Origin: Epinephelus fuscoguttatus
Taxonomy: Eukaryota > Chordata > Actinopteri > Perciformes > Serranidae
Length of the DNA stretch: 64,000 bases
NCBI RefSeq assembly: GCF_011397635.1
Contig: NC_064761.1
Span: 40,698,143-40,762,142 of the forward strand
Direction of reading: 5' to 3'
A program made the translations under genes and the position numbers. Numbering within the stretch: position 1 is the first letter of the stretch; the number at the start of each line of letters is the position of its first letter. The notes below the pieces were generated by a model. That model was given only the letters and a program-made list of their open reading frames with translations, was not told the origin of the DNA and ran no database searches. Positions 5,649 through 17,700 of the stretch are shown one piece after another.

Positions 5649-5706
5649 ATGGATGGGGTAAAGGTGTATGTCGTCTTTGGGAGCATCCTGGTGGTGCTGG
5701 TTTCAG
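5649..5706 (+). CDS. pdgfra: pdgfra exon 1: signal peptide
   Basis: The start codon at 5649 opens [19 protein letters not shown], a short polar start followed by a hydrophobic run, as expected of a secretory signal peptide. The exon is 58 nt and ends in phase 1 before GTAAAC. The transcribed exon probably begins at 5633, just after a pyrimidine-rich stretch ending in AG at 5631-5632, leaving 16 nt of 5' UTR. This is the only signal-peptide exon I find for the gene; none lies between the two Ig blocks. Confidence 0.85.
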
Positions 5707-8700
5707 GTAAACACAGAGTGGTGTGCGTAATATTGATGTTTTTTCTCTTTGTTGACAGTTTCGTTAATGTTTTCAAAACTATCTTTCAGTTACTTCCGGA
5801 CTGTCTCCACCTACCATTGTGTCCAACGAAGAAGACTTCATCCTGCAGCCAAACTCCATATTCAACATCAGCTGCACCGCTAAAAGAAACGTGGTCTGGG
5901 TTGAACCTTTGCCGAAAAACGCCTACGTTTATCCAGGATACCTCACGGCGACACTTTTTATTGACAACGCAACTGTGGAAAACACCGGCTACTACATGTG
6001 CACCTATGAAACCCCGGAGGATGACCTGGGGGCTGAACCGGAAGAAGACAATGAGGCGGGAATATATGTGTTCGTCCCAGGTGAATGTGCTTTTTTTTGG
6101 TGTTAACAGTCATGGTTTAAAGTGCGACTAGATAACTGACCAAAAGGCACAATAATTGGGATGGTGGTAAATGCTTATAGTAGCATGTGTAGAGAAATCA
6201 GAGGAACTAGCTGAGTCATGTTAGTTACCAGGCCAGGGGCGTAGGTTTCATTTCAACATTGAGGGGGCCACATTTTTGGAGCTGGATGGTTCATTAGATG
6301 TGCCGTTGGACTGTATATACCGTTTGGTTATTCATTGCTCCACACTCTCGTACTGCAGAGCGAACTCTGGGCACAGACGGAGCAGCAAAACACCAGGCAC
6401 GGTGAAACTTAGCCATTGCATTTTTCAGAAGCAGGGGATTGGAGATCCTCTGCCAGAAAAACTTCAACGTCAAACACTTAATTTCCTGCATTCTGGTGAA
6501 TGATTATGCACCACTTTGTGCGCTTTCTACATTAACTTATAGTGTAAGTCTCTTTAATTTGATCAAAACATAAGTCCTCTGCTACTTTCATGTTTTTCAT
6601 GAGGTTGGCACATTCACATGTTCAAAGCATTGAGCTGGACGTGTCCCCTGTGCCTATGGACCGAGCGTTATCTGTGCTAGCATCGCCACCATACACTGGT
6701 CATACCACACCAAGTCTATAGCAGCAAAACCCGAGCATGGATAGATTACTGAACAGGCCTACTGGACACAGGCCTTGAACTGCACTAGCAAAATGTGAAA
6801 TGTCAAAGTAAAAGGTACTGACCTGGAGATGACACAGAATGACCACAGAGAGACACAAACCAACAAAAAGAGAGAGATGCAAAACCACCACAGTCTGTCT
6901 GGCTTGCTCCTAAGTAGGAGAGGTGGTGGGGCCCTTTGCATATGTGTGCCCAGGGGCCCATTGTCTCATAATACACCCATGAGCCTGAGCGTATTAAGAA
7001 AGGGTGTTTTATCTCTTAAGAATTCAACTTTTAAACTTATAAAGATTAATGTCTTAGTCTGCGTCTTTAAAAAGTTACGGTCTTGCTTTAAAGAAATGTC
7101 GGGTAAAACTGTAAATACATGGTCATTTAAACACTTAGCAACTGTGAAAGAAAGTATGAAAAAGAAGAACAGTGTATCACAAGAGTTCTTTCAAATCAGC
7201 CAATCCCCGTTACACAGTGTGACTTATATCCTCTGCTTGCACACCTAGATCCCCAGGTTCCTTTTGTCCCTGAGACCCCTGAAAACTTGGTGGTCCCCAT
7301 GGACACTGCTGGGGTCCCCATCCCCTGCCGTGTGTCTGACCCTAACTCTCACGTCATCCTGAGGAGTGTCCCCAGTGGACAGGAGATGTCTGCCTATTAC
7401 GACACCAAGATGGGATTCTTTGGGAGCCTCTCGCCCGGGAAGTACCACTGTGAAACCACTGTGAACGGTCAGACTGTCAGAAGTGTGGTTTATACTGTGG
7501 AGAGCCAAAGTAAGTCAAAAGTCAAACATCACTGAATATATCTGGATCTGATTAACATGTATTCTCTTTATAAAATGAACAACTTAGATGAGTCAATTCG
7601 TTATTATGTGACTTTTCAAAATTCTTTTATTGGGATAAAGATTAGAAAACTGCACAGCTGCATTCACTCCCCAAGTGTGTTTACCATGCAAGCGCTGCAG
7701 GGTGATCTCACTGCATGAGAGCAATGACATTATGTCATTATCACAGGGGGAGATGACTTAACACGTCTGTTTTCACTCTGTGTGTGAGTGTGAGTGAGTA
7801 ATGGCGACCTAGTAAGCCACCACTCTGTGATAAATGAGCTCATGGTAATCAAGATGTCGCTATCTTGGGACCTGCGTGATGACGGTGCTGATGTGTGCTC
7901 TCTGGTGGTCTTTCTAGCCCCTGCGGAGATGGAGGATTTCAACGTGGAAGTAAAGGCCAGTGGGGAGGTGCTGAGAGCGGGGCAGCCTTTTAACATCACG
8001 TGTGTCGCTCCTGCTGGACTGGGCTTTCAGCAGCAGTGGCTCCATCCTAAAAAACAGGTAAGATCCAGCCCTTTTCTTTTCTGTGTCTTCGTGTTTTTAT
8101 TTCAATTTTGTCTACTGTATGGCTTCATCCATAATCAGCATTAACTGCTCAGCCTTCTGGCTCTATTTCCTTCAACCCCTTGTCATATTTCCATGTCATT
8201 TCCTACCCAGCAGCACTGAGCCTTAAATTAGCAAATAATGGTTTTGGATCTAAACCCACTGTAGCAGCAGCAAGTGGAATATAGCTCTGAGGACGGCCCT
8301 TAGTGGTTACAAAGTATGTTAGGAAAGCAGCAACAGAATGTTGTGTCTTCATTATGAGGATGCCAGCCAAAGAGCTCCTGCTGCAGTTAACCCCATGTGC
8401 AAGACGCTGACGGGAAGTTCAGGACAAATGGCTTGAGGCGAGCAGGCAGTTCAAAAGAGGTAGAAAAAAACGATAGTAAATCTTTTGACCCCGGCGACCT
8501 CATGCCGTGTAGGACAGATGCTGTCTGCACATGACAGCTAACTTAACGTTTAATGCTTTTGAAGTGCTAGCTGAAAGGATCCCAAAGAGTTTCTTGTGCA
8601 GTTTATGTTTGTTTATATTTATATTCAGATTCTTAATCTATGCAGCACGTTGTGTGTTTTGTTGCATGGGGTTCCTCTAAGCCGTTTTCCAGAGACAGTA

Positions 8701-14700: not shown

Positions 14701-17700
14701 TGGCAGTGCGCTGCCTGGCCAAGAACGAAATGGCCACCGTCAGCAGGGAGGTCAAACTGGTGTCCAATGGTAAGAACAAAGAACCTCTTTAAACAGCTTT
14801 CAATCTGACATTTGATGTTGTTGTTTCCAGCTTGTTTCCTCTTAAGTTGCTTCCATTTCTGACACTCAGAGTGTGACAGGCTTTGTGAGTGACTGTGTTC
14901 GGGGCTGGGTTAACGCTGTCAGTGTTACAGCAGCTGTCAGATGATGAGTTTGCGGCGAGACAGCTGATAGGGGGCTGCGCTTTAGCCATGAGGAAGGGGC
15001 TCTCATTCTGACAGCTAATTCTGAGAAGCAAGAGATCGTTAGGCCATTTGGTATTTCCAGTTGAGCTTTAAACCCCCCTCATGCCCTACCCCTACTCCCC
15101 CGCAGCCTAAGTGCTTGGACCCCTCCCCCACTCCCACTTCCGTGTTATCTTCCCAGCATACCTTTTGGTCCCAGTAATCTGAGCATCCTATGGATTTAAT
15201 GCTTTCTTATGCCTGATAGATGACATTTGCTATGCGCGCACCGAATGCATTTCCTTGCAAGCATTTCATTTTGTCATTACAACAGACACATGTTGCATCC
15301 ATGTGATCAATGCGCTCCCCATCTAACTTGTGCAACGGCTGGCTCTCCTCCTGAACAGGCCCTCACCCAGAGCTGACTGTAGCTGCTGCTGTGCTGGTGC
15401 TCCTGGTCATTGTCATCATCTCACTCATTGTCTTGGTTGTTATCTGGAAGCAGGTACTGTTGCCACCATTCTGCATTCATTCTCACATATTCACTCTCAT
15501 CTATTCTGCTACTCTCCCACTTGTTTATGTATTTGGAAAATGTGTTTTGTGGAGCAAATTAGCTGCCTTGCAAAATGAAGCCTGGATTTCCTGATTCATG
15601 TTTTCAGATTAAGACTGCAGTGATTTCAATGTAAATGTTAATATCAGTTGTGCACTGTGCCAAATTATTTTGGGTATCCACCAAAAGGCAACGCTTCTAA
15701 AGTCTCCTGAGCTAATAAATAAAACAAAATTTGTGGGCAGACTTTGCAAGGCTAGAAAATTGCTGTTAAAAACATCTGAGAATGTTGAAACGGTCCCAAA
15801 GGCCAAGTATCGCAAAGGTTATTCAATAAGCTCTTATATGTGTTTTGTCTTCCAGAAACCACGGTACGAGATCCGCTGGAGGGTCATAGAGTCTGTGAGC
15901 CCAGATGGCCATGAGTACATCTATGTGGATCCCATGCAGCTTCCCTACGACTCCAGATGGGAGTTTCCCCGTGACAGACTTGTGCTCGGTGAGCTGATTG
16001 TGATTTTCGATGTGCTTAAACTGCAGTCTTGTCCCGGTGGCTCTGCAGTCTCCCTGCAGGGATGTTCCGGCCAGGATGTCTCACTCAGTCTTTGAAGTGA
16101 AGCTGTCATAAGCTTATCAGGCTTGGGCAGAAGGGGCTTGCTGGCTGGGCTTCGGTCTGCCTCAGTGATCAAGGAGACATTCAGCCACTGGAAGAGTCAC
16201 AGATGAGAAAGCAGAAGCATCCAAAGTGCATGCATGAGTTTGTATGGCTGTGTTTGTGCAGGTTGTTGTTTTTCTTTGTTGATAATTGATCTGTGTTTTT
16301 CCTCAGGCCGTATCCTGGGCTCTGGAGCCTTTGGAAAGGTTGTAGAGGGCACCGCCTACGGACTCAGCCGCTCCCAACCTGTCATGAAGGTGGCAGTGAA
16401 GATGCTGAAACGTGAGTTGAAGAAATTAAAATTGGATTACAATTACAAGAAATTCAAGCCATGCTGCTTTTAGTCATCTGATATGATTCTGTATATCAAT
16501 GTAAGCTCACGAGTTACGGGGATTGGTCAGGTGAGGGCACCTGTTGTTACTACTGCAACTCATATACAGCGGAGGCTGTAACAGTGACATGGCAATTAGG
16601 GAACTTTTAATCCCTTGGTGCCGAACTGTGGCAATTTGTGCCAAAATGGCACCCATTGTTGGAGTCAAAACACAGTCAAATCTGAACTTACAAACAGGAT
16701 ACACAGACTTTAAAGCTATGTGCACAACCTAACACATTGACGAATTGACGCTGACCGGAAGTCATTCATTCCAATGGAGGTGAAAATGACAGATAGTAAC
16801 AGACTAGCGCGCAGCACGGCAGCGGTTCCGTTGACCATCGGACCATGGAGGTGCTGGATTTTTCCTACTCGGGTGTTGACAACATGGGAGAAATGGAACG
16901 TTACGGTGCTGGAAGTAGGAAATAAATTGCAATTGCAGTTGTAAACAAACAATATTTCATTTACTTATGCAAAAGAAAAATAAGCATAAGCTTTTTTTCC
17001 ACTATTAAAGGTGATTGTTGACCATAGGTTGGTTTCTGTGCGGTTGACAATTAATCTATATTTTTTAATTTTGTGCTCATTTCCATAGCCTATTTCACAC
17101 CTATATATCAGCTCTTTCAATAGGACACTACTCAACTCGTCTCAGTTCAGTTGGTACAGTGACAGTCAACATGAGAGATCTTCGCAGGAAGATATTGCTA
17201 GCTCTTCTGCTGGATGACTTCGCTAACAACTCTCGCCGATGCTAGCTAGCCACCTGCATCTGGCCAGGTCCGCCAACAACGGAACGGCGTTGTTCTGGGG
17301 GTGGGGAATGCGTTGGGGAGACGCTCCGTTGAAACAGGAAAAATAGGTCGTGCGCTCGGCGTAAGATTCAGTGTGACTGACACTTTACAAGGATCTCTCA
17401 GTGTCTCTCAGATATGTGAATAAACGCAAAGAAATCAAAGAAAAAAGATATTTCTCATAACTCCAGACGTGCCTGAGAATTCAAACATTTTTAACTTCTG
17501 TTAAGTATCAAAGTAATCCAGTGATAGTCGTCTGTACATCCATGAGTGCATTGCAAATGGGAATTGGTAATAGCATAATCGGCAAACCTTTAATGGTGCC
17601 AAATTGCTAAATGGCGGTGTAGACAGGAGGTGCCATAAATCATTGTCTGTAAAACACTGCAATAAATTTAATCAGTGGCACAAAATATTAGGCCTGCTAA

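Follow-up and report, generated by a model that had tools for sequence, protein, structure and literature searches.

Nine immunoglobulin domains in grouper PDGFRA and a two-block receptor layout found across sampled ray-finned fishes

PDGFRA, a receptor for platelet-derived growth factor (PDGF), is among the standard receptors studied in developmental biology and in cancer research, fish are standard models, and ray-finned fishes make up about half of living vertebrate species. The textbook class III receptor tyrosine kinase has five immunoglobulin (Ig) domains, D1 to D5. VEGF receptors are relatives that likewise exceed five, although we know of no D1-D4 repeat among them. For these receptors seven Ig domains are described (PMC10328876). 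A stretch of 64,000 nucleotides from the grouper Epinephelus fuscoguttatus (C10:40698143-40762142, hereafter the window) was analyzed and found to contain an intact pdgfra gene. The kinase, the transmembrane part, D5 and one D1-D4 block (block B) of its product correspond to tetrapod and shark PDGFRA, but the grouper receptor differs from these in having nine Ig domains, with a diverged second D1-D4 block (block A) at the N-terminus. Public databases carry the nine-Ig protein under the plain name PDGFRA. In titles, abstract openings and excerpts of open-licence PMC papers, no description of a nine-Ig or domain-duplicated pdgfra was found; an earlier published notice of the extra domains may exist.

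Splicing of the window yielded 28 coding exons at 5649-22621 on the plus strand, which encode 1468 amino acids and end in a single terminal stop codon. Exon borders were placed by eye, and each of the 27 coding introns is bounded by GT and AG; the coding part amounts to 4.4 kb inside a gene span of 17 kb. One open frame runs through block A, block B, D5, a transmembrane segment and the kinase. The exit phases of exons 2-7 (1164 nt) are 1,1,0,1,2,1 and recur identically in exons 8-13 (1170 nt), so that the two blocks described in an earlier note on this DNA, their phases and lengths, and its count of nine Ig domains in 1468 codons plus stop were all borne out. Phase-1 introns flank both D1-D4 blocks. 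The features of the gene are as follows, with the basis of each assignment in brackets.

5649..5706, plus strand: exon 1, start codon and signal-peptide region, exit phase 1 (spliced reading frame)
5790..6080, plus strand: exon 2, block A D1 (splicing and profile match)
7249..7509, plus strand: exon 3, block A D2 (splicing and profile match)
7918..8057, plus strand: exon 4, block A D3, part 1, with the C-terminal end QQWLHPKKQ at 8031-8057 (splicing)
8972..9134, plus strand: exon 5, block A D3, part 2 (splicing and profile match)
10679..10871, plus strand: exon 6, block A D4, part 1 (splicing and profile match)
12214..12329, plus strand: exon 7, block A D4, part 2, with the salt-bridge Arg changed to Gln and Asp to His in grouper (splicing, alignment)
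12330..12414, plus strand: 85-bp phase-1 intron separating blocks A and B (splicing)
12415..12711, plus strand: exon 8, block B D1 (splicing and profile match)
12797..13063, plus strand: exon 9, block B D2, with the strand EYIVHGW (splicing, contact-position alignment)
13209..13339, plus strand: exon 10, block B D3, part 1 (splicing and profile match)
13475..13643, plus strand: exon 11, block B D3, part 2 (splicing and profile match)
13751..13940, plus strand: exon 12, block B D4, part 1 (splicing and profile match)
14069..14184, plus strand: exon 13, block B D4, part 2, salt-bridge motif kept (splicing, alignment)
14327..14769, plus strand: exons 14-15 (14327-14453 and 14573-14769), D5 (splicing and profile match)
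15359..15988, plus strand: exons 16-17 (15359-15453 and 15856-15988), transmembrane and juxtamembrane parts (splicing)
16307..21388, plus strand: exons 18-26, split tyrosine kinase with kinase insert (splicing, kinase scores)
22144..22621, plus strand: exons 27-28, C-terminal tail and stop codon (splicing)

Both ends of the protein identify it as PDGFRA. The kinase scored 672 bits against PDGFRA, followed by PDGFRB (586), KIT (458), CSF1R (433) and FLT3 (408). Human PDGFRA was also the top solved structure for block B with D5 (376 bits; PDGFRB 131, best VEGFR 119) and for block A with the signal region (165 bits over residues 6-403; PDGFRB 118, best VEGFR 90), which places the VEGFR structures below PDGFRA for both blocks. 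Capture of a PDGFRB piece as the source of block A is ruled out by these structure scores and by the tree described below, in which PDGFRB was represented by two mammalian rows only. The kinase is split, as in class III, by an insert with the PI3K-binding tyrosines Y1106 (SYVILSFE) and Y1117 (GDYMDMK), and the Arg/acid pair of class III D4 is present in block B, with both residues in 24 of 24 aligned species; the five-Ig layout of the class is replaced by two D1-D4 blocks plus D5. Among the matches listed, the nearest database protein is P0001, the 1468-residue PDGFRA of Epinephelus lanceolatus, with 12 differences. The gene is grouper pdgfra, in what looks to be the normal form for a ray-finned fish.

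The distribution of block A was followed with two queries. The grouper block gave 179 matches, of which the best 120 were considered; 109 of these were 1440-1510 residues long, close to the length of 1470 at which the earlier note had suggested searching teleost proteins, and all 109 contained two blocks, among them eel, tarpon, arowana, herring, carp, catfish, salmonids, cod, medaka and pufferfish. The second query, taken from the first block of a sturgeon PDGFRA, gave 91 matches and added two further sturgeons, reedfish, bowfin, gar, arapaima and an elephantfish, every one with two blocks, as well as one-block sharks, rays, turtles, a frog and others. In the set formed by the window and 265 collected proteins, two blocks before D5 in a protein of 1440-1600 residues were found in 118 database proteins and the window, 119 in all. 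One-block PDGFRA rows (about 1,016-1,096 residues) numbered 18, of which 15 belong to named sharks, rays and tetrapods and three lack a species name. A grouper-only or teleost-only origin is ruled out by the two-block proteins of reedfish, sturgeon, gar and bowfin. The earlier note had taken five Ig domains as established for class III receptors; this does not apply to the ray-finned fish PDGFRA sampled and, if all ray-finned fishes share the layout, the five-Ig rule of the class would break down for about half of living vertebrate species. In the arowana Scleropages formosus a shorter pdgfra-like protein (P0132, 1354 residues) was listed besides P0113, and may represent either a second gene copy or a modeling error.

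The relationship of the two blocks was analyzed in a tree of 61 D1-D4 rows: the A and B blocks of 24 two-block proteins, 11 one-block receptors and the two mammalian PDGFRB rows. Block A (97/91) and block B (99/97) each formed a group, and the two were joined as sisters inside PDGFRA (100/95), with each block's subtree broadly matching fish relationships. The best reading of these data is a single in-frame tandem duplication of exons 2-7 that would have occurred on the ray-finned stem, some 400 million years ago. It agrees with the old in-frame exon-block duplication proposed in the earlier note, which had recommended such a tree; an old event is further upheld by the 31% protein identity between the blocks and by the layout common to ray-finned groups. 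The latter two observations also rule out a recent duplicate or an assembly error. A nucleotide repeat search returned four short families, two or three of them between the blocks, as expected for an old event. An older duplication in the jawed-vertebrate ancestor, with loss of block A in sharks and in lobe-finned vertebrates, would require two losses and is very unlikely; forcing block B together with the one-block receptors cost just 8.2 log units, which leaves it some room, but A and B were joined at 100/95 and the constraint gave a p-value of 0.025 in the approximately unbiased (AU) test. Forcing block B together with tetrapods alone cost 40 log units (p 8e-5). Several points weigh against a duplication on the ray-finned stem: sharks and tetrapods were grouped in the tree (89/76), contrary to the species tree, the p-value of the AU test is modest, the tree was built from 24 of the two-block proteins, and the named matches listed included no coelacanth, lungfish or lamprey, nor zebrafish itself.

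The reality of the extra block in transcripts was addressed with 17 two-block database proteins from the source 'lgn', which lie on contigs of 4.6-7.6 kb. Because the gene spans 17 kb in the grouper and its coding part alone 4.4 kb, these entries almost certainly represent spliced transcripts in which block A runs on into block B; from its label, 'lgn' presumably denotes assembled public sequencing runs. The earlier note had named as threats to its claim transcripts that never join exon 7 to exon 8, a separate promoter and signal-peptide exon for the second block, and an assembly artefact; none of these was found. A separate gene driven by a promoter located between the blocks is ruled out, since the 85 bp there are too few for a promoter and a signal-peptide exon (a bacterial-type promoter scan of this intron is uninformative for a fish gene). 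An assembly or annotation artefact would find some appeal in the shorter fish models: a search for short proteins with a block B query gave 131 matches, and among the 120 listed were 85 fish models below 1100 residues, of which 83 scored block B only, though the query was block B itself and models holding block A alone would escape it. The remaining two carry both blocks but are truncated in other places. Against an artefact stand the divergence of the blocks, the same layout in 118 database proteins among the matches listed and in many separate genomes, the strong block A matches at a single grouper locus and the transcript-sized contigs, and this explanation is extremely improbable. The extra block is confirmed to be neither an artefact nor a grouper oddity.

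The short models are likely, for the most part, to have been forced into the mammalian five-domain layout or to be isoforms. In support of the former, the starts of 34 five-Ig-sized models are mostly unlike exon 1 and unlike one another, and P0193 (Takifugu) is a mosaic of D1 and D2 of block A spliced to D3 of block B, as forced five-domain models would give; it was missed by the profile scan alone. Sander, Gouania, Gadus and Cyprinodon each have a listed nine-Ig protein as well as the short one. As for isoforms, exons 2-7 could be an optional cassette that is skipped by splicing exon 1 to exon 8, a tentative suggestion that is compatible with a stem duplication and would give a classic five-Ig receptor. 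The phases fit, phase 1 meeting phase 1, and two models (P0151 and P0175) connect an exon-1-like start directly to block B. In a zebrafish study (PMC9977867), a fragment of 3 kb spanning the open frame was amplified, and human Y731 and Y742 are given as Y706 and Y717, a numbering that suits a five-Ig protein; Y706 lies 387 residues below the equivalent Y1093 of the carp nine-Ig protein. The dissimilar starts and the mosaic speak against the cassette, as does the source 'lgn', which contributed one entry (40% identity) to the 120 short-protein matches listed, where clustering at 90% could conceal short isoforms within long clusters. If the long form is the rule, many fish pdgfra database models are incomplete, and constructs of about 1,060 residues are without some 390 residues of the long form.

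The two blocks have fared differently since their separation. Block A evolves 1.9 times faster than block B, which holds in 24 of 24 species, and eight of the 12 differences between the two groupers fall in block A and one in block B. Conservation in block A versus block B was 0.52 versus 0.53 for D1, 0.52 versus 0.70 for D2, 0.52 versus 0.66 for D3 and 0.54 versus 0.63 for D4, and 67 columns of block A but 134 of block B were conserved in at least 22 of the 24 species. The Ig cysteines of block A are kept and both blocks gave an Ig-type structure model (the structure comparison mostly spanned 408-902 and barely covered block A). Residues conserved in block A only cluster in its D3 (P235, G237, Q242, L245, H246, Q250 and A254). 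The W-L-H core of QQWLHPKKQ is for the most part conserved among teleost A blocks and is missing from block B and from one-block receptors, and this region is a possible new binding surface. The alignments suggest that constraint on block A has relaxed but persisted while its role changed, rather than that the block is decaying.

The blocks also differ at the D4 salt bridge. In PDGFRB, D4 residues Arg385 and Glu390 form salt bridges that activation requires and dimerization does not, and Arg383 and Asp388 of human PDGFRA are their equivalents (PMC10965988). Scoring was limited to proteins with two clean motif matches, which left 11 of the 119 unscored. The Arg is present in block B of all 108 scored proteins, the window included, while block A has Gln in 75, His in 27, Gly in one and Arg in five (tarpon, arowana, eel, reedfish and elephantfish). 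Five unscored proteins with a visible block A motif have His, Gln, His, Val and His at this site, and in the aligned 24-species set the block A Arg is replaced in 19. For PDGF binding, the contact positions L137, Y206, L208 and V242 of human PDGFRA (PMC7329128) were compared in the same 24 species. Block B has His at 206 in all 24, Trp at 208 in 23 (Phe in one) and Ile, Leu or Met at 242 in all 24, while block A shows a scatter of residues at 206 and 208, many of them Glu, Asp or Lys.

These observations point to block B with D5 as the working PDGF receptor, in which D2-D3 of block B would bind PDGF, D4 of block B would make the receptor-receptor salt bridges and the kinase would be activated as in mammals. 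Block A would sit on top as a flexible N-terminal extension lacking the usual PDGF binding and the D4 salt bridge, most likely serving as an accessory module for reach, shielding or the binding of another partner. Together with its origin on the ray-finned stem, this account of the receptor is probable. A bolder version, doubtful at present, is that block A is a conserved four-Ig module invented in ray-finned fishes which, freed from PDGF binding and receptor pairing, may bind its own partner (another ligand, a co-receptor or matrix) through a new D3 surface and provide PDGFRA with an input absent in land vertebrates. Several points speak against the division of labor between the blocks. Its biochemistry is deduced entirely from architecture, distribution and sequence changes; block A keeps the acidic salt-bridge partner Asp in 22 of 24 species and has Ile, Leu or Met at 242 in eight of 24; position 137 is mostly Asn in block B (17 of 24) and Leu in block A in 10 of 24; and block B has His, not Tyr, at 206, where the one-block receptors vary too (Tyr in five, Asn in four and Gln in two of 11).

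The residues at 137 and 242, with the Ig cysteines and Ig-type models of both blocks, could suit the proposal of the earlier note that both D2-D3 units bind PDGF and so alter stoichiometry or specificity. This proposal is not favored and appears unlikely: block A varies at three of the four contact positions (137 deviating from the pattern), 206 and 208 are often charged there and near-invariant in block B, conservation of block A relative to block B is lowest in D2 and D3, and the pairing Arg is replaced in 103 of 108 proteins. If block A does bind a partner of its own, work on five-Ig-sized fish clones would have covered an incomplete receptor or one isoform only. The two blocks would further offer a natural experiment on the outer Ig domains, in which only one of the two copies retained the pairing Arg and a stable ligand surface.

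The source genome (1.05 Gb, 26 contigs) was searched for further copies. Strong block A matches were confined to the window locus, with two weak matches elsewhere (E 6e-4 and 0.0055). Two pdgfrb-like genes were located at C9:25357184-25387134 and C12:43920948-44011374, probably a pair left by the teleost genome duplication. PDGFRB is of the same family as grouper pdgfra and has the same D1-D5 exon order, but the PDGFRB genes here have one set: in the approximately 20 kb of plus strand scanned for each, a single D1-D5 exon set and no block duplication were seen (the D5 matches on C12 are weak, at 10 and 14 bits). Further class III kinase-type matches follow each pdgfrb-like gene and, judging by gene order, are probably csf1r.

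Downstream of pdgfra on the same strand, the next gene shows a class III D1-type Ig exon within 62165-62536 of the window, with juxtamembrane and kinase-type matches onward from C10:40774197, past the window end. This neighbor is very likely kit, a name assigned from the gene order of other vertebrates, and to the extent that it holds the locus has pdgfra beside kit. An Rfam scan of the window gave no match at gathering scores. An open frame at 41555-42211 on the plus strand resembles, by eye and with no search run, a reverse transcriptase fragment of a long interspersed nuclear element (LINE), and two adjacent arrays of a 55-60 bp repeat with like units occupy 53028-53428.

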